DNA of 33,141 nt from a virus, in IMG/VR virus record IMGVR_UViG_3300000115_000096, positions 1-33,141 of that record, one strand, 5' to 3'. Made by a program: the position numbers and the translations under genes. This document shows positions 2 through 23,936 of the stretch, in pieces. Under the pieces are notes generated by a model. That model was not told the origin of the DNA, did not search any database, and saw nothing but the letters and a program-made list of their open reading frames with translations. Numbering within the stretch: position 1 is the first letter of the stretch; the number at the start of each line of letters is the position of its first letter.

Positions 2-130
2 AAACTTGATAAGAATAAGGACGGAAAACTCTCAGGTATTGATTTTAAAATGATGGGTAATAAGAATAAGGCTATGGGTGGCATGAAAATGAAGTATGGT
101 CACGGAGGAAGACTTCCACAACACGATTAA
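2..130 (+). CDS. C-terminal fragment of a small EF-hand-like protein (5' truncated)
   Basis: The gene enters from the left edge in frame 2 and ends at TAA 128-130; the start codon lies outside the window. The visible 42 residues open with a canonical 12-residue EF-hand calcium loop at nt 8-43 (DKNKDGKLSGID). Acidic or Asn ligands sit at positions 1, 3, 5 and 12, Gly at 6 and Leu at 8. A Gly/Met/Lys-rich tail follows (GGMKMKYGHGG), ending in LPQHD. From memory, small proteins combining a D-x-[ND]-x-DG loop with GG/K/Y-rich tails are common in marine phages, but I know no proven function. The next gene ends with the same PQHD tail and starts 3 nt after this stop. The role is unknown; it is probably a small virion or assembly protein. 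Confidence 0.75.
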   Translation, partial: KLDKNKDGKLSGIDFKMMGNKNKAMGGMKMKYGHGGRLPQHD

Positions 131-291
131 GTATGGCAAAGAAGGGATTGTATTATAATATCAACAAAAGAAAAAAAGCAGGAACATCGCGTTCTAAATC
201 TAATAGTACGATTAGTCCCGAAAGTTACGCAGATATGAAGTCTGGATTTAACAAGGGAGGAAAGATAAAACTAAGACCACAACACGATTAA
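116..291 (+). repeat. 15-nt direct repeat encoding a shared C-terminal PQHD tail
   Basis: CCACAACACGATTAA occurs exactly at 116-130 and again at 277-291. Each copy ends one of two adjacent small genes, so both proteins end in PQHD. The upstream codons differ, which suggests a small duplicated tail and not a recent whole-gene duplication. Confidence 0.85.
133..291 (+). CDS. 52-aa basic protein of the 'KKGLYxNINKRKKAG' type
   Basis: An ATG at 133, 3 nt after the previous stop, opens a 52-codon frame ending at TAA 289-291. The product begins MAKKGLYYNINKRKKAGTSR, is rich in Lys/Arg/Ser and ends KGGKIKLRPQHD. The N-terminus matches a short-protein pattern (K-G-L-Y-x-N-I-x-x-K-R-K) that I recall from structural regions of pelagic phages; its function is unknown to me. 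The GGKI element also occurs in the neighbouring 926-aa protein (GGGKIPKY), which links these products by a shared linear motif. The small size and high basicity would fit a nucleic-acid-contacting or internal head protein, but that is only inference. Confidence 0.8.
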   Translation: MAKKGLYYNINKRKKAGTSRSKSNSTISPESYADMKSGFNKGGKIKLRPQHD

Positions 292-302
292 AATATAAAA
301 TT

Positions 303-3083
303 ATGGGTAGTTACAAAGATATGATAGAAATGATAGGTAAGTTTAAACACGTACCTGAAATATTAGCTAATCCAGATAATGCTTACAATAAATATTACGG
401 TGGGGGTAAGATACCAAAGTATAAAGCAGGCGGTGGTACTGGTTATGGTGGTTTAGACCCAGTTTCTCAATGGTTTACTTCTGGTGGTGCAGACGGAGGA
501 ATGGGAACTCCAAAAGCATATCAACCTTATAATAGAGCGATGGGTGATGATGGTAACCTTTTAACTGGAGAATCTGGTTCTCTTATGGGTGACGATACAT
601 TAGCATCTGGAGGAGCAGCGGGAAGTGGATATCAGGGATTAACTCCGTATGGAAGTAAACCTATAAATCACCCTCTTATAGTTCCAAAAGTTACTTCTTT
701 TAAAAAAGGAGGCAAAATGTATTTTGACGGAGGTAAAAAAAAAGCGGTAACTGAAGAAGAATTTAACTTCACATCTTTTAAAGACCTTACAAAAAAACAA
801 CAAACCGAATTACTAAAACATTTTACAAACACAGAGGGGTACCTACCTAATGGACATCTTGCTACTAAAGAGTCAGGTATTACCTTTGGTTCAGGGTTAG
901 ACGCAAAAGCTTTAATAACAGAACAAGACTACATAGACCACGGGGTAAGTAAAAAAGACGCTAAGACTATTGTAGCGGGACTGAAGTATACGAAAAAGAA
1001 CGGAAAGGTATATGACATGGCGGGTAAATCTTCTCAAAAAATTCAAAAAGATTTAGGATTAACTAAGGAGCAGTTAGAGGAATATGTAGGAAATATTAAA
1101 TTTAGTAATACAACACAATCAGATATTGTCAGTAAGTCTGTAGATAAGAATTTTAATAATAATTCTGATTTATTTAATAAGGTTTCAAATTTTAAAGACT
1201 TTACTGTATTGTCTTCTGTAGTACACTTCACAGGAGATTCTCATTTTGACGAAGAAGGTAGAGGTATAAATAGAAATAAAAACTCTTCTACAAAAAGAGC
1301 TTTACAACTTACTATTGCAGACTTAATGAATAAATATGATGGTAAATTAACATCAAAAGAATTTTATAATGTTATGTATCAAACTGATAAAATAGTAGAC
1401 GACCAAGGAGGAATAGGAGTTAGAACTGATGTTTCTCACCCAGGAGATGAATCAGCAACTTTTAACAGATGGAACAAAGAGTTAAACTATTCATTAGGAA
1501 CTTTAGGAGAAGATTACGAACATGACGAAACAAAATATTACACTATAGATGTAGATGATTTAGGAAAGCAGGGTTCTAGCGACAAAAAAGCACTTACATA
1601 TTATGACGCTACATACGAAGAGCCAGAAGTTTTACCCACGGAAGGAATGAACATGACGCCCACTCAAGACATAAACCAAAATTTGATTCCTTCGGAATCG
1701 TATAACGCGTCAACAAACCCATATGAAAATATAGATTCAGAATACAATACTTCTCAGACATTTAAAAAAGGTGGATTGTACAATGAAGGAGGAAATAAAG
1801 ATTACGCAGATTCTTATGGGTCTAAGAAAAGAGGAGCTTTTCCAAGAATGAAATTTGAAGACAGTGACGAGTTTCCTAATTTAAATGTTGGAGAAAACGT
1901 ATTTATGGCTTTATCTATGGCTCAATATTACGGATACACAGGAGACATAGAAATGACTAGTGGTCAAAGAGGAGGTAAAGACCAAACAAGAGTATATGGA
2001 AAATATCAAAGAGACGATGCTTATGTTTATGGAAGGTATCCACAATATCAACAAGCTATAGCAGACTCTTTAGGGGTTTCGTTAAGAGATTATAAACGTA
2101 ACGATGTGAGTGACGAAGAATGGGAAAATCAAGATGTAGACTATATGACTAATTGGATTAATAACATTTGGTCTCAAGTACAGTCTGGAGAAATGACTAT
2201 GAAAGAAGCTGATAAAATATATCCAATGGAACACATGACGGGAGACGCAGGTGACTTTACTGGAGGTTTTAAAAGATGGTTAAACAGCAGTGAAAGTAAA
2301 CAATTTAGAAAAGATTTTAATGTAAGTGTGTTAAACGAAAGCGACCACTTTCATGTTACTTTTGGAGAATCTAATGTAGATAATTTACCAGAAGAACATC
2401 AAGCAGATTACTTTGTACATCAAGACCAGTTTAACAACCTTTCTGTAGAAAGTTCAGATGTAGCTGGAACAACAGTAATAAATATGAATCCATCTGTATA
2501 TCAAGGAGAACAAAGAAATCAATTATATGGACCTGTACTAAAACTTGAAAATATTGAAGCCAGTCTAAACACCACTCAAAATCTTGAATTACAAAAAGCT
2601 TCTCCTATGTACGAAGGAGACGTAGCTTACAGTAATTACTTAAAAGAAAATTCTGAAAGAAATGAACCTCTTGAGAATTTAGGATTAATGGAATTAGCTA
2701 AAAAAAGTTTATCAAGAGAAGATTTTTTTAATAAAGAGGGGTACGATATAAATTATAATCCCGCTCCACCACCACCACCTCCTGCAGCAGAAACTGTGAG
2801 AGTAGGAGACCATGGAGTACCCTTTCAAGAAAATATTTATAATAATAATCCTTATAATACAGAAGAACCTGTAACATTAGATAAAATGCCAGTACAAGGA
2901 AATGGTTTTACAACATTAGACAAATCTATACCAGAAGGAACCAATGTCACTCCATCTACTTTACCACAAATAAATAATGGAAATATACCAACAGTACAAC
3001 AATACAATGAGTTTTTATACGAACAAGAAGTAAAATCAAAAACAGATAATATATTTAGAATGATAAATCCTTATGGTAAATAA
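303..3083 (+). CDS. Two-domain cell-wall-degrading protein: lysozyme-like plus M15-like peptidase
   Basis: This 926-aa protein has three modules. Residues 1-140 are Gly-rich (YGGGKIPKYKAGGG at 32-45). Residues about 160-390 resemble a GH24/pesticin-type lysozyme: E178 in NTEGY, then SGITFGSGLD at 191-200 with T194 and D200 in the positions of the Thr/Asp of 'SGxTIGxGxD'. Residues about 500-690 resemble a zinc M15 peptidase: EHMTGDAGD (H644, D651, the HxxGxAxD signature) and ESDHFHVTF (E679, H682/H684). Near-identical linkers FKKGGKMYFDGGKK (133-146) and FKKGGLYNEGGNK (487-499) precede the two catalytic domains. A polyproline stretch (about 822-829) lies in the C-terminal tail. It would cut glycan and peptide bonds of peptidoglycan, for entry, lysis or both. 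No signal peptide is evident. The domain calls rest on motifs by eye; the M15 call is the firmer one. Confidence 0.75.
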   Translation: MGSYKDMIEMIGKFKHVPEILANPDNAYNKYYGGGKIPKYKAGGGTGYGGLDPVSQWFTSGGADGGMGTPKAYQPYNRAMGDDGNLLTGESGSLMGDDTLASGGAAGSGYQGLTPYGSKPINHPLIVPKVTSFKKGGKMYFDGGKKKAVTEEEFNFTSFKDLTKKQQTELLKHFTNTEGYLPNGHLATKESGITFGSGLDAKALITEQDYIDHGVSKKDAKTIVAGLKYTKKNGKVYDMAGKSSQKIQKDLGLTKEQLEEYVGNIKFSNTTQSDIVSKSVDKNFNNNSDLFNKVSNFKDFTVLSSVVHFTGDSHFDEEGRGINRNKNSSTKRALQLTIADLMNKYDGKLTSKEFYNVMYQTDKIVDDQGGIGVRTDVSHPGDESATFNRWNKELNYSLGTLGEDYEHDETKYYTIDVDDLGKQGSSDKKALTYYDATYEEPEVLPTEGMNMTPTQDINQNLIPSESYNASTNPYENIDSEYNTSQTFKKGGLYNEGGNKDYADSYGSKKRGAFPRMKFEDSDEFPNLNVGENVFMALSMAQYYGYTGDIEMTSGQRGGKDQTRVYGKYQRDDAYVYGRYPQYQQAIADSLGVSLRDYKRNDVSDEEWENQDVDYMTNWINNIWSQVQSGEMTMKEADKIYPMEHMTGDAGDFTGGFKRWLNSSESKQFRKDFNVSVLNESDHFHVTFGESNVDNLPEEHQADYFVHQDQFNNLSVESSDVAGTTVINMNPSVYQGEQRNQLYGPVLKLENIEASLNTTQNLELQKASPMYEGDVAYSNYLKENSERNEPLENLGLMELAKKSLSREDFFNKEGYDINYNPAPPPPPPAAETVRVGDHGVPFQENIYNNNPYNTEEPVTLDKMPVQGNGFTTLDKSIPEGTNVTPSTLPQINNGNIPTVQQYNEFLYEQEVKSKTDNIFRMINPYGK

Positions 3084-3200: not shown

Positions 3201-3464
3201 ATGAATATTATGAATAACGCAAAAGGAAAAATAATTAAGAAAGGTGAATTTTTTTATTTAGAAAAAAACTACGATGACATTTCTTTACTACTTAATGAAG
3301 AAGAAAAACTAATAGACAAAATAGAAAATAATAATTTTATATATTTAGACAACACTGTTTCAATTTGTAAAAATCCAAATTACAATTTAGATAAATTATA
3401 CAGAAAAAAAACTAGTAAAATAAAATACAAAAATACTTTTAAATTAATGCACGTAGGATTATAG
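3201..3464 (+). CDS. Hypothetical 87-aa protein, first gene of the terminase operon
   Basis: The 87-codon frame begins MNIMNNAKGK and ends at TAG. The product is mixed-charge and Lys/Asn-rich, with no cysteine-rich or membrane motif. It is predicted soluble, and I do not recognise a family. It sits immediately downstream of a -7 element and is followed after one base by the 176-aa gene, so it is probably the first cistron of the packaging operon. Two in-frame ATGs (3201, 3210) are possible; the second leaves room for a minimal leader. The position invites comparison with small packaging factors, but nothing in the sequence shows that. Confidence 0.65.
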   Translation: MNIMNNAKGKIIKKGEFFYLEKNYDDISLLLNEEEKLIDKIENNNFIYLDNTVSICKNPNYNLDKLYRKKTSKIKYKNTFKLMHVGL

Positions 3465-3465
3465 T

Positions 3466-3996
3466 ATGTACTTACTACAAATAAATAAAAAGGGAGATAT
3501 AGTTAGAGACGACAATGGAGTTAGTCTTGTGCCAGAATTTAAAACAGTTTTAGAAACAGAAAAATTAGGTCAAGATGCAATGAAGTGGATTGCAATGGTA
3601 TATGACTACGAAAGCCCTTACAGACATTACACTGAAAAAGAAAGAATAAAAGCTGTTTCTATGGATTTGTATAAAAGCTATACATGGTCTGGATATAAAA
3701 AACCAGAAATGATAGTTGCTGCAAATAAATATAAAGAATTACAGTTTGACCCACTAGACGAACAGCTTATAGCTTTTAATAAAAAAATTAATGAGTTTAC
3801 AAATTTAATTGACAATATGTTTTTAAATGAAGAAAACGCAGAGTTATTACAAAAGCTTATGATAGGTGTAGAGAAAATATTAAAAACAAGACAATCTTTA
3901 TTAGATTCTATAGAAAGGAGAGGAGAAAGACAAAAAATTGCTGGAGATAAAGGATTATCTTTCTTAGAAAATCGTAAGAAAATAAAAGAAATGTAA
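3466..3996 (+). CDS. 176-aa helical protein upstream of TerL; small-terminase candidate by position
   Basis: The product contains LGQDAMKWIAMVYDYESPYRHYTEKERIKAVSMD (residues about 35-68; key elements YDYESPYRHY and the following helix). The C-terminal half is helical and probably coiled-coil (about 95-176), ending in a basic tail. I recall similar 'YD-x-SPYRH-x-[PT]E-x-[DE]R' proteins next to phage packaging genes, without an experimentally assigned role. The gene starts one base after the previous stop, and its stop overlaps the next start (TAATG). Being two genes before TerL makes it the best candidate in the window for a small terminase subunit, but no helix-turn-helix is obvious, so this stays a positional inference. 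Confidence 0.7.
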   Translation: MYLLQINKKGDIVRDDNGVSLVPEFKTVLETEKLGQDAMKWIAMVYDYESPYRHYTEKERIKAVSMDLYKSYTWSGYKKPEMIVAANKYKELQFDPLDEQLIAFNKKINEFTNLIDNMFLNEENAELLQKLMIGVEKILKTRQSLLDSIERRGERQKIAGDKGLSFLENRKKIKEM

Positions 3997-4271
3997 TGAA
4001 CAAAAGTATTAGAAAGCCTATTAGAGAAACAAAAAAACCTATACAAGTTAATCGTAAGGGTGGTAAAAAAGATAATATTGTATATTTAAAACAAAGGTAT
4101 TCTTATCATTACAGAAAAGGTCAATGGGATAAAGCGGAAGAATACAATCAATATACTTTAAGCAATTACAATATAAATTTGAGAGATTGGATGGAGTCAA
4201 AGGAATCTAATAAAATAAAAAATAAAAATACATTTGGATTTGAAAAACCAAAAAGACTAAGATATGGGTAA
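3996..4271 (+). CDS. Small basic protein overlapping the terminase gene
   Basis: This 91-aa product is strongly basic at its N-terminus (MNKSIRKPIRETKKPIQVNR) and continues with an aromatic, charged helix (YLKQRYSYHYRKGQWDKAEEYNQY). It starts on a TAATG overlap with the 176-aa gene, and its last 8 nt overlap the start of TerL, so the three are translationally coupled. Basicity and coupling suggest a DNA- or terminase-associated factor. I do not recognise the family, and a TerS role cannot be excluded. Confidence 0.7.
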   Translation: MNKSIRKPIRETKKPIQVNRKGGKKDNIVYLKQRYSYHYRKGQWDKAEEYNQYTLSNYNINLRDWMESKESNKIKNKNTFGFEKPKRLRYG

Positions 4272-6081
4272 GATTAAATTTGACCCACAAAGATACAGAC
4301 CTATACCAAATAAAGGGTTTCCTGATTTAGAACATGGTTCTGTTTCATATCAAGAGTGGTGGACTGAGCAACAAGAAAGATGTATCAATGGTTTTAAACC
4401 AAAAGGTATGCCCTGGATATCTGGTAAGTATTATTTTTATTTAAATTTTTATTATATACTAGGTAACAGTGGAGAGAAAGGAGGAAGGAAATCTTTAATA
4501 CATCCGTGGTACAGAGAGATGGATAGAGAATACTTTAACTTATTTGAAACGTGTAAAAAAGAAGGAAAAGGAATGATTGTTATAAAGGCCAGAGACAAAG
4601 GTTTTTCTTACATGAACTCAGGTATGGTAGCACATGAATATACGTTTTTTCCATACAATGATATAGGTGTAGCGGCAGGATTACAAGCAACTGCTGACGC
4701 ATTCTTTGATAAAACTAAAAAAGGATTAAATGGTATACATCCTAACTTTAAACATTCAGTATTAAAAGACACAGATGGTATATTACGTTCAGGTTACAAA
4801 CAAAAAAACAAAGACGGTAAGTGGGAAATTGGTGGATATCAATCTACAATTATATGTAGAACAATGGATAATCCAGAAGTATTTAAGGGAGAAAGAACTT
4901 CTTTGATGGTATTTGAAGAGGCTGGAGAATTTAAACATTTAAAAAATGCGTACATGTCATCTAAAGCTTGTTTTATGGATGGTGATATACAATTTGGAGT
5001 TCCTATTGTTGGAGGTACGGGTGGTGACATATCTAGAGCTTCTAAAGATTTTATGGATATGTATTATAGTCATGACGCTTACAATCTTATACCTATGTTT
5101 ATACCAGCGTCAAAAGCTTACTATGGATTTTTTGATATACAAACAGGGAAGGAAGATATTAATGGAGCTAAAGACAAATTGACTGAAGACAGAGAAGTGA
5201 TTAGAAAGTCTGGAGATAACGAAGCTTATAATTTACATATACAAAACTACCCTTTAACAATTGAAGAAGCGTTCTTAAATACTAAAGAAAGTAGGTTTGA
5301 TATATCTCTGCTTAATGCACAAAGGTCAAGAATACTTGCAAGTAAAGATTATAAGAATCAAATACAGTCAGGATATTTAGATTGGGTGTTAAGTGACGAC
5401 CAAGAATTAAAAGTTTTATGGAGGCCTCACCCTGCTGGACCCTTTAAAATTCTGTCACATCCAATGCCAGAATATAAAGGAATTGACATAGGAGGAATAG
5501 ATTCTTATGACCAAGATGAAGCAGGAGCGTCAGATTCCTTGGGAAGTGCAATAATTTATCGTAGATTTGCAAATACAAATATACCAAGCGATTATGTTGT
5601 CGCTGAATATACAGACAGACCTAAGAAAAAAGAAGATTTTTGGGACGGATGTTTGAAATTAGCAGTCTACTATAACAGTAAAATGTTGGTAGAATACACA
5701 AAGATAGGTATATTAGATTATTTTAAACGTATGAATGCGTTAAAATATTTAAAAGAAAAACCAGAGTCTGCTCATAATCCAGGCTCTAGAACAAGAAACC
5801 AATATGGTGTTCACATGAATAAGCAAGTGAAATCTTTATTGGAAGATTTGATAGATGATTATATTAGAGAAAACATCAAAGAGATTTGGTTTTTAGATTT
5901 AATAGATGAATTAGCAAATTATGGACTACAAAATACTGACCGAGCTATGGCTTTTGGTATATGTTTAATCCATAATATAGACAACTACAGAATGAGAGTG
6001 GAAGAAAAACAAGAGTCAATAGACATAGGTCTAAAATATTATACAAGGGGTCATAATGGTACTCCAATAAAATTAAATTAA
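4264..6081 (+). CDS. terL: Terminase large subunit (crAss-like)
   Basis: This 605-aa protein is the ATPase-nuclease that powers DNA packaging through the portal and cuts the concatemer. A deviant Walker A lies at residues 109-117 (ARDKGFSYM), the form I know from crAss-like TerL. Walker B plus catalytic Glu is at about 213-221 (SLMVFEEAG). The RNase H-like nuclease shows motif I at about 406-413 (GIDIGGID, D408), motif II at E477 (MLVEYTK) and motif III at D559 (DRAMAFG). Length and motif order are complete. The start ATG at 4264 lies within the preceding gene, and the portal ATG follows the stop by one base, so expression is coupled to both neighbours. Confidence 0.95.
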   Translation: MGKIKFDPQRYRPIPNKGFPDLEHGSVSYQEWWTEQQERCINGFKPKGMPWISGKYYFYLNFYYILGNSGEKGGRKSLIHPWYREMDREYFNLFETCKKEGKGMIVIKARDKGFSYMNSGMVAHEYTFFPYNDIGVAAGLQATADAFFDKTKKGLNGIHPNFKHSVLKDTDGILRSGYKQKNKDGKWEIGGYQSTIICRTMDNPEVFKGERTSLMVFEEAGEFKHLKNAYMSSKACFMDGDIQFGVPIVGGTGGDISRASKDFMDMYYSHDAYNLIPMFIPASKAYYGFFDIQTGKEDINGAKDKLTEDREVIRKSGDNEAYNLHIQNYPLTIEEAFLNTKESRFDISLLNAQRSRILASKDYKNQIQSGYLDWVLSDDQELKVLWRPHPAGPFKILSHPMPEYKGIDIGGIDSYDQDEAGASDSLGSAIIYRRFANTNIPSDYVVAEYTDRPKKKEDFWDGCLKLAVYYNSKMLVEYTKIGILDYFKRMNALKYLKEKPESAHNPGSRTRNQYGVHMNKQVKSLLEDLIDDYIRENIKEIWFLDLIDELANYGLQNTDRAMAFGICLIHNIDNYRMRVEEKQESIDIGLKYYTRGHNGTPIKLN

Positions 6082-6082
6082 A

Positions 6083-8377
6083 ATGAGTAAAGAGTATAGT
6101 GCATTTCCATCAATGATGGTATCAGAAAAAGAAAAGAATGACGAATGGTGTAATTCTGTTTTAGGTTCAATAGTTAGTTATATGTCGTATAACGAAAGTT
6201 CATATGGAGACTCAAGAACAAGAGACATCAATAATTATTCAATATATAATGGAAATATTAATCAAGGTGACTACGCTTATATTACTGAACAATACGGATT
6301 ATCATATCCTGCAAGATTAGTTAATTATCCTATTATTACTCCTAAAATTGATTTATTAGTTGGTGAAGAACTGAAAAGACCTATAGACATGAAGGTGTCT
6401 ACTATAAACAAAGAAGCTGTAATAAGAAAGTTAGACCACAAAGTTGCTATAGAAATGAAATCATTGTTGGAAGATATACATAAAGATTTTGAAGAAACAT
6501 ACGGAGCTCCTATAACAGATGAAGGCCAGGGAATGCCAGTACCAGATGACATAGGTATATATATGAAATATAACTACCGAGAAATGGTAGAGGAGAATGC
6601 ACAAGACGGACTAGAGTATGTGCTAAACAGATATAATTTAAAAGATAAATTTAAAGAAGGGTTTAGAGATTTATTAGTTACTGGTAAAGAATTTTATAAA
6701 GTAGATATAGTAAACGGAGACCCTCACGCGCGAAGGGTAGACCCACGTTCTGTAATATATGATACGTCTGTACATTCTGATTATTTAGATGACGCAGCTT
6801 GGGTGGGAGAAGAAAGATGGTTATCTGTTAATGAAATAAATGACGAGTTTAAAGAATACTTAACAAAAGACGATTTACTTATATTAGATGAAATGAGAAC
6901 TTCTTATGGTCAAGATATTAGTGACTATAATAATCAATTACTATGGGTGGATAGTGCTCATGGAAAAGAAAACCGTATCCGTATAGTAACAGCTGAATGG
7001 AAATCCTTAAGAGCTATTAAATTTAAAATATCTCCTAATAAATATGACCCAGATAGACCATTTAGAAAAATGGTAAGAGACACATACAAAAAAAGAAAAG
7101 GTGATACTATAGAAACTAAGTGGGTAGACGACATATGGGAAGCGACAAAAATTGGTGGTAAAATATTAGTAAAAGCTAAAAGAAGAGACAATCAAGTTAG
7201 AAGTGTAGATGACCCAGGTAAAACTAGTTTGTCTTATATTGGATGTATAAAAGGTAACACTACGGGACATCCAAACTCAATGGTAGATATATTAGCTAAT
7301 ACACAGATGTTATATAATATAGTAATATACCAAATAGAATTAGCTATGGCTCGTTCTGGTGGTAAAGCAGTAGTATACGACACGTCACAAATACCAACAA
7401 ACGTAGGTATGGATATGCAAACTGTATTGTATCATTTAAAAACAGACGGTATCATACCTATTAACTCAAAAGACGAAGGTGGTCAGGTGAGTAGTTTTAA
7501 TCAATTTCAACAAGTTGATTTTACATTATCACAATCTGTACAACAGTTAATTAATCTAAAGATTATGTTAGAAGATATGGCTGGTCAACTTTCTGGAGTT
7601 ACAAGACAAAGAGAAGGAGCGGTAGAACAATATGAATACGTAGGTAACGTACAAAGAAGTGTAGTGCAGTCATCTACTATTACAGAGTCTTGGTTTTATT
7701 CACACGCAGAAGTAAAACAAAGAGTTTTAGAAAGTTTATGTAACAACATGAAAATAGCTTGGGCTGGAGGTAAAAAAGCAGCAATGATATTAGGAGACGG
7801 AGCTTATAAATTTTTAAATATTATGCCTCAAGTTGCTTTACAAGATTACGGTGTTTATGTAGGAGACAGCGGTAAGGATGACGCTATGAAACAAGTGGTA
7901 CAACAATTAGCTCAGTCTGCATTACAAGCAGGAAACATTGACTTACTAAACATCTTAAAAGTATTAAAAGCAGATACCATGACTGAAGCAGAAAAAGTTT
8001 TAGAACAAGGTATGGATAAAATGAAAGAACAAGCAGCTGAACAACAACAACAAGTTATGCAACAAATGCAAGCTCAACAAGAAGCTGACCAAGCTAAATT
8101 TCAAGCAGAAGCAGAACTTAAGAAAATGGATAACGACACTAAAATACAAGTGGCGGAAATACAAGCTGAATCTAGAATGGCGGTTGCAACATTACAATCT
8201 GAAGACAAGAGAGATATACATGACTCTACACAAGACGCAGACTTTAATAAAAAATTAGCTGACCATGAAATAAACAAAGACACTAGTAATTCTGAAAAAG
8301 ATAAGAATAGTTTTACTGGTGAGTCACCAACTACAATGGAGGATAAATTAAGAGCAAAGAACAAAGTTACAAAATAA
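6083..8377 (+). CDS. Portal protein (crAss-like)
   Basis: This 764-aa protein would form the dodecameric ring at the packaging vertex. The segment NYPIITPKIDLLVGEELKRP (about residues 80-99) closely follows the 'NYxII-P-KI-LLIGEE-KRP' signature I associate with Crassvirales portals. IYNGNINQGDY upstream and YDTSVHSDYLDDAAWVGEERW (around 225-245) also fit the family. The C-terminal quarter is Gln/Ala-rich and probably coiled-coil (QAAEQQQQVMQQMQAQQEADQ, about 650-670), likely facing the interior as a barrel or anchor. The last residues are disordered and charged. It directly follows TerL and is followed by a new promoter element, so it closes the packaging operon. Confidence 0.93.
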   Translation: MSKEYSAFPSMMVSEKEKNDEWCNSVLGSIVSYMSYNESSYGDSRTRDINNYSIYNGNINQGDYAYITEQYGLSYPARLVNYPIITPKIDLLVGEELKRPIDMKVSTINKEAVIRKLDHKVAIEMKSLLEDIHKDFEETYGAPITDEGQGMPVPDDIGIYMKYNYREMVEENAQDGLEYVLNRYNLKDKFKEGFRDLLVTGKEFYKVDIVNGDPHARRVDPRSVIYDTSVHSDYLDDAAWVGEERWLSVNEINDEFKEYLTKDDLLILDEMRTSYGQDISDYNNQLLWVDSAHGKENRIRIVTAEWKSLRAIKFKISPNKYDPDRPFRKMVRDTYKKRKGDTIETKWVDDIWEATKIGGKILVKAKRRDNQVRSVDDPGKTSLSYIGCIKGNTTGHPNSMVDILANTQMLYNIVIYQIELAMARSGGKAVVYDTSQIPTNVGMDMQTVLYHLKTDGIIPINSKDEGGQVSSFNQFQQVDFTLSQSVQQLINLKIMLEDMAGQLSGVTRQREGAVEQYEYVGNVQRSVVQSSTITESWFYSHAEVKQRVLESLCNNMKIAWAGGKKAAMILGDGAYKFLNIMPQVALQDYGVYVGDSGKDDAMKQVVQQLAQSALQAGNIDLLNILKVLKADTMTEAEKVLEQGMDKMKEQAAEQQQQVMQQMQAQQEADQAKFQAEAELKKMDNDTKIQVAEIQAESRMAVATLQSEDKRDIHDSTQDADFNKKLADHEINKDTSNSEKDKNSFTGESPTTMEDKLRAKNKVTK

Positions 8378-8381
8378 TTTG

Positions 8382-8389
8382 TATCTTTG
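8382..8389 (+). promoter_or_regulatory. -7 element TATCTTTG before scaffold and capsid genes
   Basis: TATCTTTG followed by CAAAATA matches TAnnTTTG in the short gap after the portal stop. It gives a predicted leader of roughly 25 nt before ATG 8420. The same 11-mer TATCTTTGCAA recurs at 22650. No good TTG -33 box is visible. Confidence 0.6.
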
Positions 8390-8419
8390 CAAAATAGGGA
8401 ACAAATAAATTAAATAAAT

Positions 8420-9421
8420 ATGTCAGAAGAAAAATCAAGCTTAGTAGAAGAGGTTACTAGTGAATCAGCTTCTAATGAAACAAAAGAAAACACAGAATCA
8501 TTTAATCCATTAGCGTTTGCATCAGACGCTCCTGCTGGGGATTTAGGACCAGATATACCTAAATCAGATGAAGACAAAGGAGAACCTGTAACAGACGAAG
8601 ACGGATGGAAATGGGAAAAACAATCAAAAGAAGAAGAAGAAGAAACGGAAGTAGAAGAAACATACGACTGGGAAGCTAAATCAGAATCAGAAGTAGAAGA
8701 AGATGACGATTTAGACTGGGGGAAAGTAGCTAAACAATTAGGAATGCCTAACGCATCAAAAGAAGAAATTAGGCAAACTATGAAAGCTATGAATAGTAAA
8801 GATACAGAACAAGACACTCAAGAAGAAGAAGTCACAAGTCCAGAAATTTCTACATTACAAAACTATTTAGATTATTCTAATAAAGAATTAGTAATAGAAG
8901 AATTAAAAGCAGATGGACTAACTCAATCTGAAATAGACGACACTGTTGACAAAATGCAACGTAATGGATTGATTGCTATTAAAGGAAGAGAAATAAAAAG
9001 AAATATAAAGGGAGCTATAAAACAAGCTAAAGAAAATTTATCTGTTACACAACAACAAAGTTTAGCAGAAAAAAATAAAAAAATAAGTGAAGCTAGAGAA
9101 GGTTTACAAGGTCACTTAAAAGAAATGGATAGGTTCATGGGAGGTAAAGTAACAAAAAAACAGAAGGAAGAGGTGTATAGATTTGCTACTAAAGATATGG
9201 CGAATGAATTATGGAAAAGTCATGCCAATGTTGCTGACGTTGCTATGTTTCTGCTATATAAAGACCAAATCAAAGACATTCTTCGTTCTCAAGGGCGTAA
9301 CGAAGGTAGTAAGAGTTTAATGGACAAAATACAATCGCCAAACCTAAACAACGGGAAAAATCGTAATCCATATCAACCGAAAGGGGATGCGTTTGACCCA
9401 AAAGCGTTCATGAGCGAGTAG
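8420..9421 (+). CDS. Probable capsid scaffold / assembly protein
   Basis: The 333-aa protein lies between portal and major capsid genes, the usual place of the scaffold. The N-terminal 140 residues are extremely acidic and disordered and contain three Trp motifs in acid context (DGWKWEK, YDWEAK, LDWGKVAKQLG). The middle and C-terminal parts are charged helices (about 145-300) with a basic end (NNGKNRNPYQPKGDAFDPKAFMSE). An acidic, helical, capsid-adjacent protein fits a scaffold that is lost or degraded before maturation. No protease domain is recognisable. The gene stops at TAG and is followed by an 83-nt leader before the MCP. Confidence 0.75.
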   Translation: MSEEKSSLVEEVTSESASNETKENTESFNPLAFASDAPAGDLGPDIPKSDEDKGEPVTDEDGWKWEKQSKEEEEETEVEETYDWEAKSESEVEEDDDLDWGKVAKQLGMPNASKEEIRQTMKAMNSKDTEQDTQEEEVTSPEISTLQNYLDYSNKELVIEELKADGLTQSEIDDTVDKMQRNGLIAIKGREIKRNIKGAIKQAKENLSVTQQQSLAEKNKKISEAREGLQGHLKEMDRFMGGKVTKKQKEEVYRFATKDMANELWKSHANVADVAMFLLYKDQIKDILRSQGRNEGSKSLMDKIQSPNLNNGKNRNPYQPKGDAFDPKAFMSE

Positions 9422-9504: not shown

Positions 9505-11043
9505 ATGGCAAATTTATCAACAGACGTTTATGGTAGTGGAACTACTGCCGAAAACGCATTGAATACGGCCTTGATGCAATATCCAGAGATTGCTAGAACT
9601 TTGATTCAGCAATACCCAAGATATGCAGCAACGTATTTATTAGAGCGAACAGGAAGATTCGCTTCAGAAAAAGTATTAGGAGATAATTCTTTTGAATGGA
9701 AAGTAATGGGAAGATACAATCGTCCATCTTACAACACAGGATTCTTTGGTACTAATGGTACATCATTTACAGCGGCTGCTTCTGTAACAGCAACTGGAGG
9801 AACAATAGATGACGCAGATGCAAATGGTGATGTATTTTATTTAATCACTGATGGAACAGCTACTGGTAGAACTGGTAACTTTTTGAACAAATGGGATATG
9901 GTTAGATTTCAGTCAGGAGCTACTGCGGTAGTTGTTGCAGACCCTATTGCAAACACTTCATCTTCAGCAGCTGCAACAGACTACATAGTTCAATTTGAGA
10001 TGATTGACGCTAGTGCTCAAGCTCTTTTACCAGCAGATATTGCTGATGAAGCAATTATAGCTTCTATTGGTTCAGCTTTCCCTAACGGTTCTGATGGAGC
10101 TGATGTAGGTGAGAACTTCTCTTATCCAACTACACATAAGAACTACTTAACTACAATGAGAAAGAAATGTTCAGTTACTGGTAAAGATTTAACTGACGTT
10201 ACTTGGATTGAAAATAATGGTTCAAGATTATGGTACTTTACAAGAGAACAACAAATGATGGATGAATTTATGTACCAACAAGAGTTACAAAGATGGTATG
10301 GTAGAAAATCTATTACAAATGAAACTACAACAGTTGCAAGACCAGGAGCTATTACATCTTCTTTATTAGGAACTTCAGGTACTATGGGAAGTTCAGTTGT
10401 AACTGGAGACGGTCTATTAGCTCAAATTGATTCTTCTAACCAAGCTTCGTATTCTATGGGGTCTTTAACAGAAGATATTATTACTGAGTTTATTGCTAAG
10501 ATTTCATTAAACGCAACTTCTGCTGAAGGTAACGAGTGGGTAGTATTCACTGGTACTGAAGGTAGATTAGCGTTCCACAAAGCTATGAAAGACCTTATTG
10601 TTGCACCTTCTGGTTCAATGACTGGTGGTTCTATGAAGGGTGTATCTGGTGACGTTCATTTAGGAGCCAACTTTTCTTCATATAGTGCATTAGGTAACAA
10701 AATTACTGTTGCTCATTGTCCTGTATTTGACGACCCTAACATTCATTCTTCAGCTGGTGGAACTAATGCTTTTGGTGACAACAGACTTAAAGAATCTGCT
10801 AAGATGGTGTTTATGGACTTCGGAAAAACTTCTGGAATTTCTAACGTAGAGTTAGTTACTAAAGGAGCTGAAGGAGTAAACAGAAGTATGATTAAGAAGT
10901 ATGTAGCTGGAATGGTAAACCCTTATGACCAAAAATCAATGTTAAGTGCTAACGCTGATGACAAGTTTGAATGCCACGTGCTTTCAGAAACTGGAATCGT
11001 TGTTAGAAATCCATTGTCTTGTGGTATCTTAAGTGTTTCATAA
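9505..11043 (+). CDS. Major capsid protein (HK97-fold, crAss-like)
   Basis: The 512-aa product occupies the MCP position after portal and scaffold and has the expected length. The N-terminal arm (MANLSTDVYGSGTTAENALN) leads into a long helix (YPEIARTLIQQYPRYAATYLLERTG) and then the FEWKVMGRYNRPS strand region. A beta-rich insertion around 95-155 (GDVFYLITDGTATGRTGNFL, WDMVRFQSG) would form a surface or E-loop-like subdomain. The C-terminal half carries the EWVVFTGTEGRLAFHKAM region and YVAGMVNPYDQKSM, typical of the A-domain and end of crAss-like MCPs as I know them. No separate protease gene lies beside it. The strong A-rich start context and flanking hairpins suggest high expression. Confidence 0.85.
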   Translation: MANLSTDVYGSGTTAENALNTALMQYPEIARTLIQQYPRYAATYLLERTGRFASEKVLGDNSFEWKVMGRYNRPSYNTGFFGTNGTSFTAAASVTATGGTIDDADANGDVFYLITDGTATGRTGNFLNKWDMVRFQSGATAVVVADPIANTSSSAAATDYIVQFEMIDASAQALLPADIADEAIIASIGSAFPNGSDGADVGENFSYPTTHKNYLTTMRKKCSVTGKDLTDVTWIENNGSRLWYFTREQQMMDEFMYQQELQRWYGRKSITNETTTVARPGAITSSLLGTSGTMGSSVVTGDGLLAQIDSSNQASYSMGSLTEDIITEFIAKISLNATSAEGNEWVVFTGTEGRLAFHKAMKDLIVAPSGSMTGGSMKGVSGDVHLGANFSSYSALGNKITVAHCPVFDDPNIHSSAGGTNAFGDNRLKESAKMVFMDFGKTSGISNVELVTKGAEGVNRSMIKKYVAGMVNPYDQKSMLSANADDKFECHVLSETGIVVRNPLSCGILSVS

Positions 11044-12105: not shown

Positions 12106-12309
12106 ATGAACTTTATAGATTTTTTAAATAACTTAAATCCAGGTCACACAAAAAGGGCCGCTGAAGAATACGATAAAAGTAAAAAGAATAGATTTAATAT
12201 TGGAGGTCAGTCTGGATTTAAATGGAGAACAGAATCAGCTAATAAAACATGGGTGGAAGGAAACACACTAGTAAAAGAAAACAAAGGTAAAACAATACCT
12301 AAATATTAA
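12106..12309 (+). CDS. Hypothetical 67-aa protein ending in KTIPKY
   Basis: The small, basic product starts MNFIDFLNNLNPGHTKRAAE and ends NKGKTIPKY. The ending resembles the GGGKIPKY element near the N-terminus of the 926-aa protein. It has one IGG and no membrane span. It starts in an A7TG context after a promoter and hairpin and is followed 29 nt later by the 248-aa gene. Perhaps a minor virion component; the family is unknown to me. Confidence 0.6.
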   Translation: MNFIDFLNNLNPGHTKRAAEEYDKSKKNRFNIGGQSGFKWRTESANKTWVEGNTLVKENKGKTIPKY

Positions 12310-16681: not shown

Positions 16682-17095
16682 ATGGCTAAAAAACAAGAAC
16701 AACAAAAATCTAATAAAGCTATGTCTCAAGCTCAGGGTTTTACTGGAGGTATGGTGTCAGACCCAGACCCAAGATATCAACCAAAAGGGAGTTATAGACG
16801 AGCTTTAAATGTAAGACTAACAAATGACGCTGGAAATACGTTTACTGTAGAAAATATAGAAGGAAACAGAAAGATGTTTAATTTAAATGACATCTGTCAA
16901 CAAACATATGACCCAGGTCTTACAGAAGGTATTTTAGGAACAAGAGTATTTACTAAAGCTGGAGTTGCATCAGCTGGTGAAAAGTTTTCTGAAATATACA
17001 TGCATCCATCTACAACAGATGGAAATGGTAACGAAGTAGGAGATTTTTTTCCAAGTCCAAATAACGGTCAAATAGTCCTACTTTTTCTGGAGTGA
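16682..17095 (+). CDS. N-terminal part of the muzzle (tail nozzle) protein
   Basis: The 137-codon frame contains GFTGGMVSDPDPRYQPKGSYRRALNVRLTNDAGNTFTVENIEGN, the classic N-terminus of the crAss-like muzzle/tail nozzle. A muzzle of this kind is normally one very long chain. Here the frame stops at TGA 17093-17095 after GQIVLLFLE, and the rest continues at once in the -1 frame. Either this is the first half of a frameshifted gene (programmed or an assembly error in the TTTTT run at 17082-17086) or a naturally split protein with a GTGA-coupled second half. The N-terminal half alone could hardly form a nozzle, so the joint product is favoured. Confidence 0.8.
   Translation: MAKKQEQQKSNKAMSQAQGFTGGMVSDPDPRYQPKGSYRRALNVRLTNDAGNTFTVENIEGNRKMFNLNDICQQTYDPGLTEGILGTRVFTKAGVASAGEKFSEIYMHPSTTDGNGNEVGDFFPSPNNGQIVLLFLE
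17065..17095 (+). other. -1 frame transition within the muzzle gene
   Basis: The upstream frame is open to TGA 17093-17095, and the downstream frame is open from codon 17065 (after TAA 17062-17064). Any -1 slip in this 30-nt window joins the two. The T-run (ACTTTTTC, 17080-17087) is the likely place, giving ...GQIVLLF|SGVIPFIG.... GTG at 17092 overlaps the TGA as GTGA, so independent reinitiation is also possible. Confidence 0.7.
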
Positions 17096-20000: not shown

Positions 20001-22692
20001 TAATCATTCAGGAGAATCTTATAGCGCAAATGATGCAACAACATCAGAACCAGGAGCTGTTACTAACGATGGAACAAGTACAAGTTTACATAGAATAAAA
20101 AATAATTTGAACGCTACAACAGGTAAAAGTTGGCATCCACAAAATGACGAATTGTCACAAGATAACACGTTAAGATATTGTAAAAAAATAAGTATAGGTT
20201 CTGACGATGAAGGATATGGAGCTTTAATTGCAAAGTATTATATATATGATACATATTACGGAATAGGTTTGTCTGTTGACGGAGGAGCTGGATATGGTAA
20301 TGGTTTTAAAACTAAACAAACAGGAGAAAAGCATGACGACCCAGCTACACCTTTTAGTATGCAATACAGAGCTAGTCAATTTCACGATGTTTATCATCAC
20401 GAAATATTAAACGCTAAAGAATTAGAAGAAGGTGAAGTAGTGTCAAAATCATTTTTTAAAAACGGTGTTTTAATGATAGACGAAGGAGATAAAGCTTTTG
20501 CCACGCCTGCCACACAGGCACACGCAGATAATAATATGAGTGGATTTTCTAATAATACTTTAGGGTTTTATTCAGGAGTAAGAAGAGCGGAAATTACATC
20601 GGGGTCACACAAACAAGAGGCCTCTGGGGGAACATCGTTTTTATTTTCTATGTTTGGTATTGTAAATGCTACAAGTTCAAGTTCAGGACCTGGAGACCTT
20701 GATAGAACTTACGATACAATGTCAACAGTGCAAAAAGGATTAAAAAGTATTCTTATACAAATAGACGGTGATGGAGAAAGAGGAGAAAAAAGAGGTCTTT
20801 TAAATCCTAGGGATTTGTCGGCAATTTTAGAAAACAGAAATTGGAATACAGGTCAGGGTGTAGACCGTGCAAATTTTCACGGATGGATGAGTGAAATTTC
20901 TAACGAACATAACAAAAGAAACTATGACACGGGAAATGTCGGTATAAAAACTAGTGTTAACTGTAAATTTGGAGGTCCGTCATATATACCGTATAAATTT
21001 TTATGTTCAATAGTTAGAAATATAATTCCTTATGGGGGTCCAGGACAAAACGCTATTGTATCAACAAGATATATACCTGCTGGTAACTTTCACCCTATTA
21101 AAAAAGATGCAAATGGAGACTCAGACGCAAATCATTTATCTAAAGTTTTTGGAGGGGACACGTTTGTTAATTTCTACTCACATCAAAAAACAGCTTGTGA
21201 TACAGAAAATAACTCGTACGCTAGATGGCAAGTTTTTCCTGTAGAGTCTGACACAAATACCGACATGAGACTAGGTTATCATTTAGCGGCTGGAGATACA
21301 AATATAGGTGACACATCAGTAACTACCGATACAGGGGAGTTATTAATAAATACAAACGACTGGGAAGCAAACGATGTATACAGTCAAGAAAACAATTTAA
21401 AATCAGCAATTTCTGTAGACGAAACAAGAACATGTAAATCACTTGACTTACCTTATCAAATTGTATATTCTGAAACAAAAATATCTGGAGAAGCTGAAGA
21501 TTCTTTCAAAGTATTTAAACAGTTTTCTTTTCATGATATGGAAACTCAGTATGGAGAAGTTACAAGATTAGCAAAATGGAAAAACGATGTCTACGTATTA
21601 CAAGAATCGTCAATGTCAAAACTTCTAGTAAATCCTATATCTATGATAGCAGACGAATTAGGGTCTTCTCTATTTACAGGTACAGGAGAAACAGTTGAAA
21701 ATCATTTATATATATCAACTAAGTTTGGTACAAGAAATATGGAAAGTGTTGTTTCTACAGAAAAAGCTATATACTATATAGATAATACTTACGGAAAACT
21801 AATACAATATACAGGAGAATCTTTAAAAGTTTTATCTGATGACTTGGGACAAAGAAACGCTTTAGAGAGCATTATTAAAGGCGAAGGTAGTTTAGATAGT
21901 AAAAAGAAAGTTGGAAGAAACTTTATTTGTGATAACGCTTTAAAATTTAACGGAATAACAAGTATTTTTGATTATAAAAACAACGAGTTAATTATTACTA
22001 TGCATAGCTCTACATTAGACACTGAAAACAATAGAGAAGTTAAAACTATTGGTGCGGGAGAAAATGCTTATCAGGTAGCTACGACAAATTCACAAACAAT
22101 AGTTTACAGTGAATCTTTAAACGCTTTTACATCTTATTATTCTGTTACACCAAGAAGATGGATGTCAATAGGCGGATATGTAACTTCTACAGAAAGTGAT
22201 ATTTATTTAGATGAAAAAGGTCCTTTCACAGGAGCACCTGGACAACCTTACATTTTTAATGATAATCATTTATCTGTGTGGAAATGGGACGAACAAATAC
22301 ACGAGTATAAAACTATGTTTTTTGATGAAAACATTACTCCGTCTGCGTCAGACATAGCATTAAGCGGTATAACTAAATCTATATCAGAAATACCTTCAGA
22401 TGTTAAGGTTTTTGATAACGCTAAAATTGTAATGACTCCTAACTCTAAATCTAATTTAACTAATCAGTTTGTAATTTTTGAAACAGAGACAACAGGTCCT
22501 AGTACTTTAGATATAAATAACAATACAGTAGCAAAGTATCAAGAAGGTATATTAAGATTTCCATTAAGAGATACCACTCAAGCGGGACCTAGAATGAGAG
22601 GTACATACATAAATATAGAATACTCTACAAGAAGTACAAATAAATTTAATATCTTTGCAATACTTGCAAAATACCGAAAATCATACAACTAA
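17092..22692 (+). CDS. Muzzle (tail nozzle) protein, main part
   Basis: This frame of 1866 codons from GTG 17092 carries the bulk of the muzzle that closes the tail end of crAss-like virions. Family features include YRFGVQIYDKNGRAGNVLWIGDIEMPE (about 502-528), VVRAERQESDKSILQQGILNQTVAYG (about 724-749, the 'R-x-xR...ILxQG' block) and FKQFSFHDMETQYGEVTRLAKWKNDVYVLQESSMSKLLVNP (about 1475-1515, repeat-like beta structure near the C-terminus). Joined to the preceding 137-codon frame it makes a protein of about 2000 aa, large for the family. The start is uncertain: GTG is the first usable codon, but a frameshifted start from 16682 is more likely. The stop overlaps the next ATG (TAATG). Confidence 0.85.
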   Translation: MIPFIGTSATATFSVAQSFQVSIVGHYSYNNNVIFVIVKPHVDFPTDPDKSQTIFLDVRFDRNLRIEMVYDLMVCYDHVGANNRYPDLKMKVDTPIRMEGIIENECISRIFWTDNINPLRSLNLGKSGLNRLSPDVLDLTPLHSPSQPVLTKTINGSLPVGQLQYCYKYISSNGGETVMSPFSNLYHTSKHSFSTYSNYYGSISGDPLQDVSSQGFEIKIKDLDNDFDVIELYSILHVQNDGPIRVSLVGSQQFASSASEVTFYHTNWNGDLAEGIDSILIDINTWNICKDIVIKDNILLAGNLQTLDNSISEKEWNVKVRRYNIIDSSGSSNTGTITSNDSQILEYEIPSGSTEATSVPPSLGLTWTNGMPKWRTYKGDDTSTIGGTDYNDKGRVDILKKQSHEYRYLSDGLTLGGESYDYSNNDLGGCRLTFDLKQRQVDFQNNVSVSPFIQAGPITDLQTDNISRDDTGSLNTDNTDTDFVASMSLGGSKDPSTGNFKGYRRGEMYRFGVQIYDKNGRAGNVLWIGDIEMPEMNDPLRRLRSDDSDYNPGMPTYGTDSLFDKELFGQLDVIGDHRTSYIYGCTTPGIDVSWFNQTAGYFSSRPTYRYIKNGELSYNYAAQENTITASTTNNTGAGLDLHAAYARSNGKWDWGSSNAVGWISPNVLVGSSSILDSDYTVKQIPNRYKMQNSFSDDVHYALDLFVNFEFRIPSDVRDKISGFRVVRAERQESDKSILQQGILNQTVAYGHNKVEKGYSEKRIGWEKSGDQFINTTAIDQTIHEVYDSILNGYIGLAENSNLAFRGKVNNNYTLLQSAAVNTEQIFAWNEFEEAMSKHNSAFEYWNNPMDYQGTTGQRTPFTPDPKRRHSAYFGCYEVMPNVKELVEPTNRHDLSPGTHTHYSKGACAQAVQGSIFTLDSPDSAFGTSPYSHRTGDKIRVDAIMKLVYDLKTLGDSASTVPGLERPFGFSNHSGESYSANDATTSEPGAVTNDGTSTSLHRIKNNLNATTGKSWHPQNDELSQDNTLRYCKKISIGSDDEGYGALIAKYYIYDTYYGIGLSVDGGAGYGNGFKTKQTGEKHDDPATPFSMQYRASQFHDVYHHEILNAKELEEGEVVSKSFFKNGVLMIDEGDKAFATPATQAHADNNMSGFSNNTLGFYSGVRRAEITSGSHKQEASGGTSFLFSMFGIVNATSSSSGPGDLDRTYDTMSTVQKGLKSILIQIDGDGERGEKRGLLNPRDLSAILENRNWNTGQGVDRANFHGWMSEISNEHNKRNYDTGNVGIKTSVNCKFGGPSYIPYKFLCSIVRNIIPYGGPGQNAIVSTRYIPAGNFHPIKKDANGDSDANHLSKVFGGDTFVNFYSHQKTACDTENNSYARWQVFPVESDTNTDMRLGYHLAAGDTNIGDTSVTTDTGELLINTNDWEANDVYSQENNLKSAISVDETRTCKSLDLPYQIVYSETKISGEAEDSFKVFKQFSFHDMETQYGEVTRLAKWKNDVYVLQESSMSKLLVNPISMIADELGSSLFTGTGETVENHLYISTKFGTRNMESVVSTEKAIYYIDNTYGKLIQYTGESLKVLSDDLGQRNALESIIKGEGSLDSKKKVGRNFICDNALKFNGITSIFDYKNNELIITMHSSTLDTENNREVKTIGAGENAYQVATTNSQTIVYSESLNAFTSYYSVTPRRWMSIGGYVTSTESDIYLDEKGPFTGAPGQPYIFNDNHLSVWKWDEQIHEYKTMFFDENITPSASDIALSGITKSISEIPSDVKVFDNAKIVMTPNSKSNLTNQFVIFETETTGPSTLDINNNTVAKYQEGILRFPLRDTTQAGPRMRGTYINIEYSTRSTNKFNIFAILAKYRKSYN
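22650..22657 (+). promoter_or_regulatory. -7 element TATCTTTG before the cargo-protein genes
   Basis: TATCTTTGCAA lies inside the last codons of the muzzle gene, 34 nt before ATG 22692. It repeats the 11-mer seen at 8382-8392 before the scaffold. It would allow separate expression of the four downstream virion-protein genes. No -33 TTG is visible, and the coding context (IFAILAK) means it could be chance. Confidence 0.4.
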
Positions 22693-23936
22693 TGGCAAAC
22701 TACTTAGACTTAATGAATCAATTACAGGATAGAAGGAGAGCTGATATATCAGAATTTAATCCTACTAATCCTTACAGTTCTTCAGCGTATACTTATCAAA
22801 ACGCAGGAGATTTATATAACGAAGCTCAAGGAGAAAGTTTACAAAATGCACCAGAAGGATATATTCCTTCTGAATATTACGAAACTCCATCTTTAACACA
22901 AAAAGTAACATCAGGTGTTAGTAATGTTTCTTCAGCTGCTACAGTAGTTGATAAGTTAGCAAAACCTTTAGGTAAAATAGGTCAAAGTGCTATTAGTAAA
23001 GGACTACCTTCAGGAATGACAGCTCTTCCTCCAGCAACAATACCAAATTTTCCAGTAGGAGATGTGGGACACGTGGCGGGAATAGAAGGGGTAGCGGGAG
23101 CAGGAGGAGCTATGGGGGCAGCTCCAGCAACAATACCAAATCCAGCTGCCACTGGAATGTCTGCAGCGGGAAGTGGAGCAATAGCAGCTGCGGCTTACAC
23201 AATAGCAAACGACAACAATCCATACACATATAAAGCTCCAGAAGCTGTAGGTATGGGTGTAGGAGATTTTATGGCTGCAAAAACAGTAATGGGGATGGCG
23301 GGAGTAGCAGCTCCGTGGGTACCTATCGCTGCAGCTGCTTTAGGATATTTATTTAGAAGTAAAAAATCTAAAAAACTAAAAAGACAAGAGCTAGAGGTAA
23401 AGCAAGAAACAAAAAATTTGTATTCCCAAAACATGATAGAAGAAAGAAGAAAAAGAAATTTAATGTCAGATTTATCTAGAAAATCAAAAGGAAATACTAT
23501 TTATGGTGGAGCTATGTCAAATCAAAACACAATGGCAAAAAGCGGAATGAAATATAATTACAACTCGGGAGGAGTTAATTTAGAAAATGTAACAGCAGAG
23601 TTTACAGGAAATGAACTAATAGTAAACAATCAAGATGTTGTAGAGCAAGGAATAGCTGAAAAAAATTATTCTAAAGCTGCTCAACCTATAAGGGAAGCGA
23701 TGAGAGGAGGTAAAATAACACCTGGTCCTGAAACACACAAAAATAATCCAATGCCTGTAACTGCTGATGGAAGTATATACGCGGGTGGAGGTATGTTACC
23801 TTTTAAAGTAGGTAATGGAGCTGGAATATATGACCACGCTACTGACCAGTTTAAATCTACAATGTCAGACAAACAAATAGCTATGGTGGCACAGAAAAAT
23901 ATAAATAAGTGGAAATCTAATAATATGTATTCATAA
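22692..23936 (+). CDS. Probable ejected virion protein with a Gly/Ala-rich hydrophobic core
   Basis: This 414-aa protein has three parts. Residues 1-75 are polar and Tyr/Asn/Pro-rich. Residues about 100-225 are Gly/Ala-rich and hydrophobic (GVAGAGGAMGAAP, AAGSGAIAAAAYTIAN, VMGMAGVAAPWVPIAAAALGYLF), the last part long enough to insert into a membrane, followed by a very basic stop (RSKKSKKLKRQ). Residues about 295-414 form a conserved-looking tail (AEFTGNELIVNNQD, GKITPGPETHKNNPMPV, DGSIYAGGGMLPFKVGNGAG). This tail recalls the 'VEGGExV...GPSHxxGGI' tails of internal proteins in Bacteroidota phages. Coupled to the muzzle by TAATG and to the M15/SPOR gene by the same overlap. Expected role: packaged protein that helps form the channel at infection; inference. 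Confidence 0.65.
   Translation: MANYLDLMNQLQDRRRADISEFNPTNPYSSSAYTYQNAGDLYNEAQGESLQNAPEGYIPSEYYETPSLTQKVTSGVSNVSSAATVVDKLAKPLGKIGQSAISKGLPSGMTALPPATIPNFPVGDVGHVAGIEGVAGAGGAMGAAPATIPNPAATGMSAAGSGAIAAAAYTIANDNNPYTYKAPEAVGMGVGDFMAAKTVMGMAGVAAPWVPIAAAALGYLFRSKKSKKLKRQELEVKQETKNLYSQNMIEERRKRNLMSDLSRKSKGNTIYGGAMSNQNTMAKSGMKYNYNSGGVNLENVTAEFTGNELIVNNQDVVEQGIAEKNYSKAAQPIREAMRGGKITPGPETHKNNPMPVTADGSIYAGGGMLPFKVGNGAGIYDHATDQFKSTMSDKQIAMVAQKNINKWKSNNMYS
23029..23141 (+). repeat. In-frame 20-nt direct repeat
   Basis: CTCCAGCAACAATACCAAAT occurs at 23029-23048 and 23122-23141. The copies are 93 nt (31 codons) apart and both encode PATIPN in the same frame. This points to a recent internal duplication in the hydrophobic region of the 414-aa protein. 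Confidence 0.85.

Follow-up and report, generated by a model that had tools for sequence, protein, structure and literature searches.

A conserved aromatic-x-x-G-G-basic motif at C-termini and lysin module borders in a marine crassvirus-like clade, a candidate docking tag for virion cargo

Near the start of the virus record analysed here (33,141 nt, hereafter the window), a 926-aa mosaic protein carries two different wall-degrading domains. The original prediction noted that each has the same FKKGG linker in front, and read this arrangement as a modular cassette bearing a processing, export or virion-docking signal. The question raised by this locus is whether such a short glycine-rich linker is a signal at all and, if so, for what. 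Both domains and both linkers are present in the ORF, and the further N-terminal variant that had been pointed out, GGGKIPKY, lies within YYGGGKIPKY (Table 1).

The window TerL and portal (phrog_6547) both matched head-and-packaging PHROGs, and TerL was 25-31% identical to its counterparts in crassviruses and in Flavobacterium phage FpV4 (Fipvunavirus). Judged from these genes and from the crassvirus-type major capsid protein (Table 1), the window comes from a marine crassvirus relative, a Crassvirales-type tailed phage in or beside the order, and its host is presumably a marine Bacteroidetes. IMG/VR contigs of up to 67 kb provided close relatives. At 16682-22692 of the window, two overlapping ORFs of 137 and 1866 aa take the place of a single unbroken 2001-aa ORF of the near relative G001 (35116-41121), the split being likely a frameshift or a sequencing error. 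The start of a giant ORF, 3969 aa in G001, is cut at the window end (30764-33139) and occupies the place of the RNA-polymerase-associated cargo proteins of crAss001. A spore photoproduct lyase-like radical SAM protein of G001 was also recorded (L085 505-1368; PF20903, E 1.8e-25).

Table 1. Features of the window referred to in the text, in window positions.
Feature	Position	Strand	Basis
End of EF-hand-like small protein, tag YGHGGRLPQHD before the stop codon; cut by window start	2..130	+	full homologues in L001, L139
52-aa small basic protein, C-terminal tag FNKGGKIKLRPQHD before the stop codon (247-288)	133..291	+	sequence, homologue alignments
Mosaic 926-aa protein, two wall-degrading modules, motif-bearing disordered linkers	303..3083	+	homologues before TerL in relatives
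N-terminal motif YYGGGKIPKY, residues 31-40	393..422	+	sequence
Double motif FKKGGKMYFDGGKK, residues 133-146, before lysozyme-like module	699..740	+	sequence
Lysozyme-like module A, probably T4-lysozyme/pesticin-like, approximate boundaries	741..1652	+	weak Pfam, partial AF2 model
Double motif FKKGGLYNEGGNK, residues 487-499, before M15-like module	1761..1799	+	sequence
Putative M15/LAS-type metallopeptidase-like module, HxxGxAxD and ExxH	1800..2528	+	AF2 model, motifs read from sequence
Three untagged small genes, conserved, between mosaic gene and TerL	3201..4271	+	sequence, relatives
Terminase large subunit (TerL), preceded by tagged genes	4264..6081	+	phrog_6681, E 2.4e-96
Scaffold-like protein, acidic N-terminal segment 8501-8728 (FNPLAF, GWKWE, YDWE, LDWGKV)	8420..9421	+	sequence
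Major capsid protein, crassvirus-type	9505..11043	+	Pfam Crass_capsid, E 2.5e-38, over cut-off
67-aa protein near capsid gene, conserved internal F-x-I-G-G, weak member	12106..12309	+	sequence, relatives
414-aa protein in crAss001 gp45 position, YNSGG and YAGGG	22692..23936	+	gene position

The whole mosaic protein generated no Pfam hit, only one sub-threshold PHROG hit, no convincing PDB sequence match and no match among named phage records, and Foldseek with the full 926-aa model returned no significant match. The profile of the first module (module A) likewise gave no convincing PDB sequence match, and its Pfam match to Pesticin reached only E 0.036. The best matches of a partial AF2 model of module A (mean pLDDT 52, low confidence) were mostly T4 lysozyme entries and pesticin with Z of 3.5-4.6, in a list where many receptors are T4 lysozyme fusions. 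At the level of fold, these weak scores point to a module that is probably T4-lysozyme/pesticin-like. The second module was modelled at pLDDT 66-88 across most of its length; Hedgehog-N, VanXYc, VanYB and LysECD7 headed its structure matches, with Z of only about 4, and the metal and catalytic motifs HMTGDAGD (HxxGxAxD) and ESDH (ExxH) were read directly from the sequence. Two homologous modules searched in Pfam gave no match, and the low-scoring fold similarity weakly suggests an M15/LAS-like metallopeptidase. Elsewhere in the window, a 1556-aa protein in the gp46 position (23936-28606) contains an HGHASACDIS...GHIH pattern, generated no Pfam or PHROG match, and is possibly another M15-like peptidase. 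The motif-bearing linkers of the mosaic protein are predicted to be disordered (AF2 pLDDT of about 20-30). Because G001 has a separate pair of a holin gene (phrog_3427, E 1.1e-31) and an adjoining endolysin-like gene (phrog_33083, 4.6e-13) away from the mosaic gene, the mosaic lysin is unlikely to serve as the endolysin for host lysis.

Comparison with the relatives showed that the K-K-G-G element originally described is real but merely one instance of a conserved aromatic-x-x-G-G-basic core. The motif is [FY]-x-x-G-G-[KR] with exact spacing, often with a hydrophobic residue after the basic one; in the positional profile, basic residues are followed by [FY], [NDTK], any residue, G, G and [KR], and then by F, M, H, Y, V or I. 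In 167 proteins of the relatives, a redundancy-reduced set in which some homologous pairs may remain, [FY]xxGG occurred 140 times against 26.0 expected from within-protein shuffling (z 24), and [FY]xxGG[KRTMV] 90 times against 6.5 (z 32). With the aromatic residue one position before GG, the count was 37 against 25.8 (1.4x), and with three positions 28 against 25.7 (1.1x). The window proteins alone contained six [FY]xxGG[KRTMV] against 1.3 expected from shuffling, and as this excess is modest, the statistics rest on the relatives. The source contigs of the 167 proteins were picked by similarity to the terminase and the mosaic protein and lie mostly around head genes, so that the motif statistics speak for the head-gene region. 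The motif is commoner than expected for Gly/Lys-rich linkers, and the shuffles and spacing controls led us to reject a chance linker.

The distribution along the genome was examined in five longer relatives. Genes just before TerL contained 25 [FY]xxGG against 3.0 expected (15 against 0.6 with K or R added), TerL and later genes 33 against 34.6, and the early genes on the other strand none against 3.2. No [FY]xxGG excess was found in the stretches of crAss001, Cellulophaga phage phi14:2, cr125_1 and FpV4, and Azobacteroides phage ProJPt-Bp1 (L237) showed a mild excess (21 against 9.9; 2 against 1.0 with K or R). A generic crassvirus feature was rejected, since these four crassvirus-type stretches are without excess and that of ProJPt-Bp1 lacks the basic residue. 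Glycine and aromatic codons at the motif were close to background, codon choice for the motif glycines hardly differing from that for the remaining ones, and this ordinary codon use indicates a signal selected on the protein rather than an anchor in DNA. The motif is almost certainly a real protein-level element of the marine crassvirus-like clade; a narrow search of the open-access PMC literature returned no description of it.

Besides the linkers, the motif occupies the C-termini of small and late proteins. Related endings had been pointed out in small neighbouring proteins, and two of these are real: the protein cut by the window start terminates in MKYGHGGRLPQHD (tag at 95-127) and the 52-aa protein in its own copy. 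KTIPKY at the end of the 67-aa protein is a weak example, being lost in relatives at greater distance. One protein family of the relatives, encoded at the upstream edge of the late genes and about 200-610 aa long, has a [KR]x[FY]TxGG[RK][FL] variant as its exact C-terminus, for example KRYTNGGRF directly before the stop codon. In small proteins, no more than about a dozen residues separate YxxGG[KR] from a terminal Q-H-D or Q-L-D. Clustering of 68 tagged short ORFs after removal of the tag gave 10 clusters, an approximate number because the biggest pools several K/M/G-rich families and another consists of a truncated piece of this 200-610-aa family. DUF5872 (E 1e-12) is among the tagged proteins, and in this family the x residues vary while the aromatic residue, GG, K and QHD are constant; a neighbouring DUF6321 protein (1.3e-14) retains only the Q-x-D end. 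Net charge was +10 to +18 in the tagged small proteins tested and +25 in the DUF6321 neighbour. The 414-aa protein in the gp45 position had no PDB sequence match, and its counterparts in relatives carry a few motif copies.

The YTNGGRF C-terminus pattern was found in 17 stretches of viral contigs, mostly on known contigs of the same clade, the match in L111 lying outside called ORFs. The GG..QHD end pattern yielded at least 27 distinct tagged ORFs, most of the raw matches listed not being tagged ORFs. A single DNA pattern for the tag, probably too strict, gave no match in whole records. In L010, glycine-rich repeats like those of a beta-barrel outer-membrane protein occur at 4588-5244 and in the N-terminal part of 5463-8801, a tagged gene and its neighbour.

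Homologues in other marine phages indicate how the tag relates to the proteins that bear it. The 52-aa protein aligned with pelagiphage and cyanophage proteins across residues 1-41 at most, and these homologues stop about where the tag starts, e.g. at YANMKKGFPKKKK before the stop codon in HTVC200P. In HTVC033P, the DUF6321 protein ends in RAWNC and the DUF5872-like protein is also tagless. A gene for an untagged homologue is located between the scaffold and capsid genes in HTVC200P and directly upstream of the terminase in S-TIP28; in pelagiphage Greip, homologue genes are among other genes, not head genes. The modules DUF6321, DUF5872, phrog_25774 and phrog_727, known from small basic proteins of marine phages, occur in the present clade as well; the pelagiphage and T7-like cyanophage versions examined end without the tag, and the T4-like cyanophage versions are fused within polypeptides of 472-1006 aa, which are perhaps cut by the prohead protease of these phages. 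As the modules are fused in T4-like cyanophages and separately tagged in the present clade, they may act in one place. The DACYHKV module was seen in long polypeptides of the T4-like cyanophage contigs L103 (1873-4893) and L104 (1317-2735), the latter also with DUF6321.

The prediction of a modular cassette was supported, as four different wall-degrading modules (A-D) interchange at the lysozyme slot across the window and its relatives, and homology breaks cluster close to the motif. Modules B and C matched PF00959 (Phage_lysozyme) at E 1.4e-4 and 1.4e-11, scoring 22.6 and 45.2 bits, respectively, against a curated cut-off of 22.3; module D in L012 matched the SLT transglycosylase family PF01464 (E 6.6e-10, 39 bits against a cut-off of 21.3), and L013 is homologous to L012 across this module. 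At the DNA level, the window is about 80-89% identical to L002 along two stretches separated by a differing module, the first ending at residue 152, eight residues past the FDGG motif, and the second beginning at residue 451. Between L009 and L006, DNA homology stops at residue 132/139, where the motif has its final G, and resumes at 499/388, one residue ahead of the next motif (the equivalent of FKKGGLYNEGGNK). Among ten proteins, 48% of the internal homology ends (mean of the two proteins compared) were within 20 residues of a motif against 8% of random positions, figures that are descriptive only because the ends are non-independent and alignments are drawn to the motif.

Found both at exact C-termini and within disordered linkers, on proteins that are unrelated to one another, the short conserved element behaves as a docking motif would. 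Among the three functions originally offered, virion docking is the best, given the exact C-terminal placement and the addition to small basic proteins, and processing is disfavoured. We give roughly even chances to the reading that [FY]-x-x-G-G-[KR]-hydrophobic recruits cargo into the procapsid in this one marine crassvirus-like clade, the tag probably not being cleaved. The tag ends small basic proteins and a larger late protein, and recurs in linkers before, between or after lysin modules; under this reading, tagged proteins would be bound in the procapsid and then kept in the particle, the small basic ones as internal head proteins, and the lysozyme/M15 protein would cut peptidoglycan during genome entry. 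T4 directs its basic internal proteins into the head core through a short sequence common to them (PMC9026906). The cargo proteins of crAss001 reside in capsid and tail and are ejected, and the parts of the crassvirus structural atlas drawn on here leave the choice of cargo for packaging unexplained (PMC10172136). Gene order offers circumstantial support, the tagged genes lying ahead of TerL and homologues close to head genes in some phages but not all (Greip); that other crassviruses carry cargo without the tag counts against the docking explanation.

A partner for the tag may be found in the scaffold-like protein, the product of the ORF presumed to be the scaffold from gene position and acidity. 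Residues 36-102 of the window protein form a low-complexity, otherwise variable segment of net charge -22, in which the motifs FNPLAF, [WF]xW, [YD]xW and [LI]xW are kept in 29/29 non-redundant scaffold homologues, a descriptive count as the regular expressions were loosened after sequence inspection. The proteins of crAss001, phi14:2 and FpV4 at this position, read by eye, are without the aromatic pattern. Because of its complementary charge and aromatic residues, the arm is a candidate tag partner. That this acidic aromatic segment reads the tag as its receptor is put forward tentatively, and its aromatic motifs could bind the capsid protein instead. Equally speculative is the full proposal, namely that the scaffold-arm aromatics would read one transferable address motif, placed C-terminally or between domains, and that this motif would load unrelated proteins and swappable lytic enzymes into the head as a protease-independent counterpart of the T4 capsid-targeting sequence (CTS).

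Other explanations of the motif were weighed. A maturation cleavage site, at which a phage or host protease would cut after GG to separate modules or trim the small proteins, would suit motifs in disordered linkers at module borders, and Gly-Gly is a protease site in other systems. In familiar Gly-Gly sites, however, an aromatic residue is at the fourth position before the cut and here it is at the fifth; moreover, KRYTNGGRF stops two residues past GG, QHD is conserved beyond GG at variable distance, and S78, C39 and Clp-type protease families were not found in seven relatives, although another phage protease or a host protease is possible. Cleavage thus seems distinctly unlikely. Slightly better placed, though still unlikely, is docking to a component of the mature virion or injection apparatus (portal, tail barrel or gp45-position protein) or to the host envelope instead of the procapsid interior. 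The 414-aa gp45-position protein bears a motif copy, crAss001 gp45 binds portal and tail barrel (PMC10172136), and the envelope is the expected site of lysin action, but the small basic tagged proteins resemble head proteins more than tail parts.

The motif might also have no binding role and be a favoured flexible linker that recombination and local duplication have carried through neighbouring genes, as the clustering of homology breaks close to it, the Gly/Lys-rich low-complexity context and the K/M/G-rich composition of some small families would allow. This we regard as improbable: composition-preserving shuffles and neighbouring spacings do not reproduce the motif, its x positions vary with aromatic, GG and K/R constant, codon use is ordinary, and it is fixed at C-termini, where a linker is unnecessary. 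A role of the DNA itself, as recombination anchor or internal ribosome-binding site, is very improbable. The first copy does contain AAAAAAGGAGG followed by ATG, and AAAAAAGGAGGCAAAATG resembles a Shine-Dalgarno sequence with a start codon; the ATG is missing in the second copy (GGTGGATTG) and in most homologues, and the motif glycine codons match those of other glycines. With codon use ordinary and the start codon not conserved, this candidate was disfavoured.

The proposed docking tag has counterparts in known systems. The T4 CTS of IPI-III and Alt is likewise one short sequence on dissimilar, mostly basic phage proteins, proposed as a general head-loading route (PMC9026906), but it is N-terminal, 10-19 residues long and cleaved by the protease gp21, whereas the marine tag, different in sequence, stands C-terminally or between domains and occurs in phages in which an S78 or Clp-type protease was not found (seven relatives). 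The cargo-loading peptide of encapsulins is a short C-terminal peptide on several proteins that serves the loading of an HK97-fold shell (PMC8346489), a likeness that applies if the tagged proteins are cargo, as we infer; encapsulins are, however, cellular compartments with dedicated enzyme cargo, while the marine tag has an unlike sequence, occurs in internal copies too and would belong to a viral head. A further comparison is with the crAss001 cargo proteins gp45, gp46, gp47, gp49 and gp50, crassvirus cargo held in capsid and tail before ejection (PMC10172136); the crAss001 stretch tested showed no [FY]xxGG[KR] excess, unlike the marine clade.

With a compact motif fixed in its place across many unrelated proteins, the choice of crassvirus cargo becomes directly testable. 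If the docking explanation is true, the motif would predict which marine-phage proteins of unassigned role travel in virions, and the YTNGGRF or YKKGGKYYKQHD forms may serve as short fusion tags with which proteins are loaded into heads of this kind in the laboratory. A docking tag would also account for the free exchange of lytic modules in these phages.
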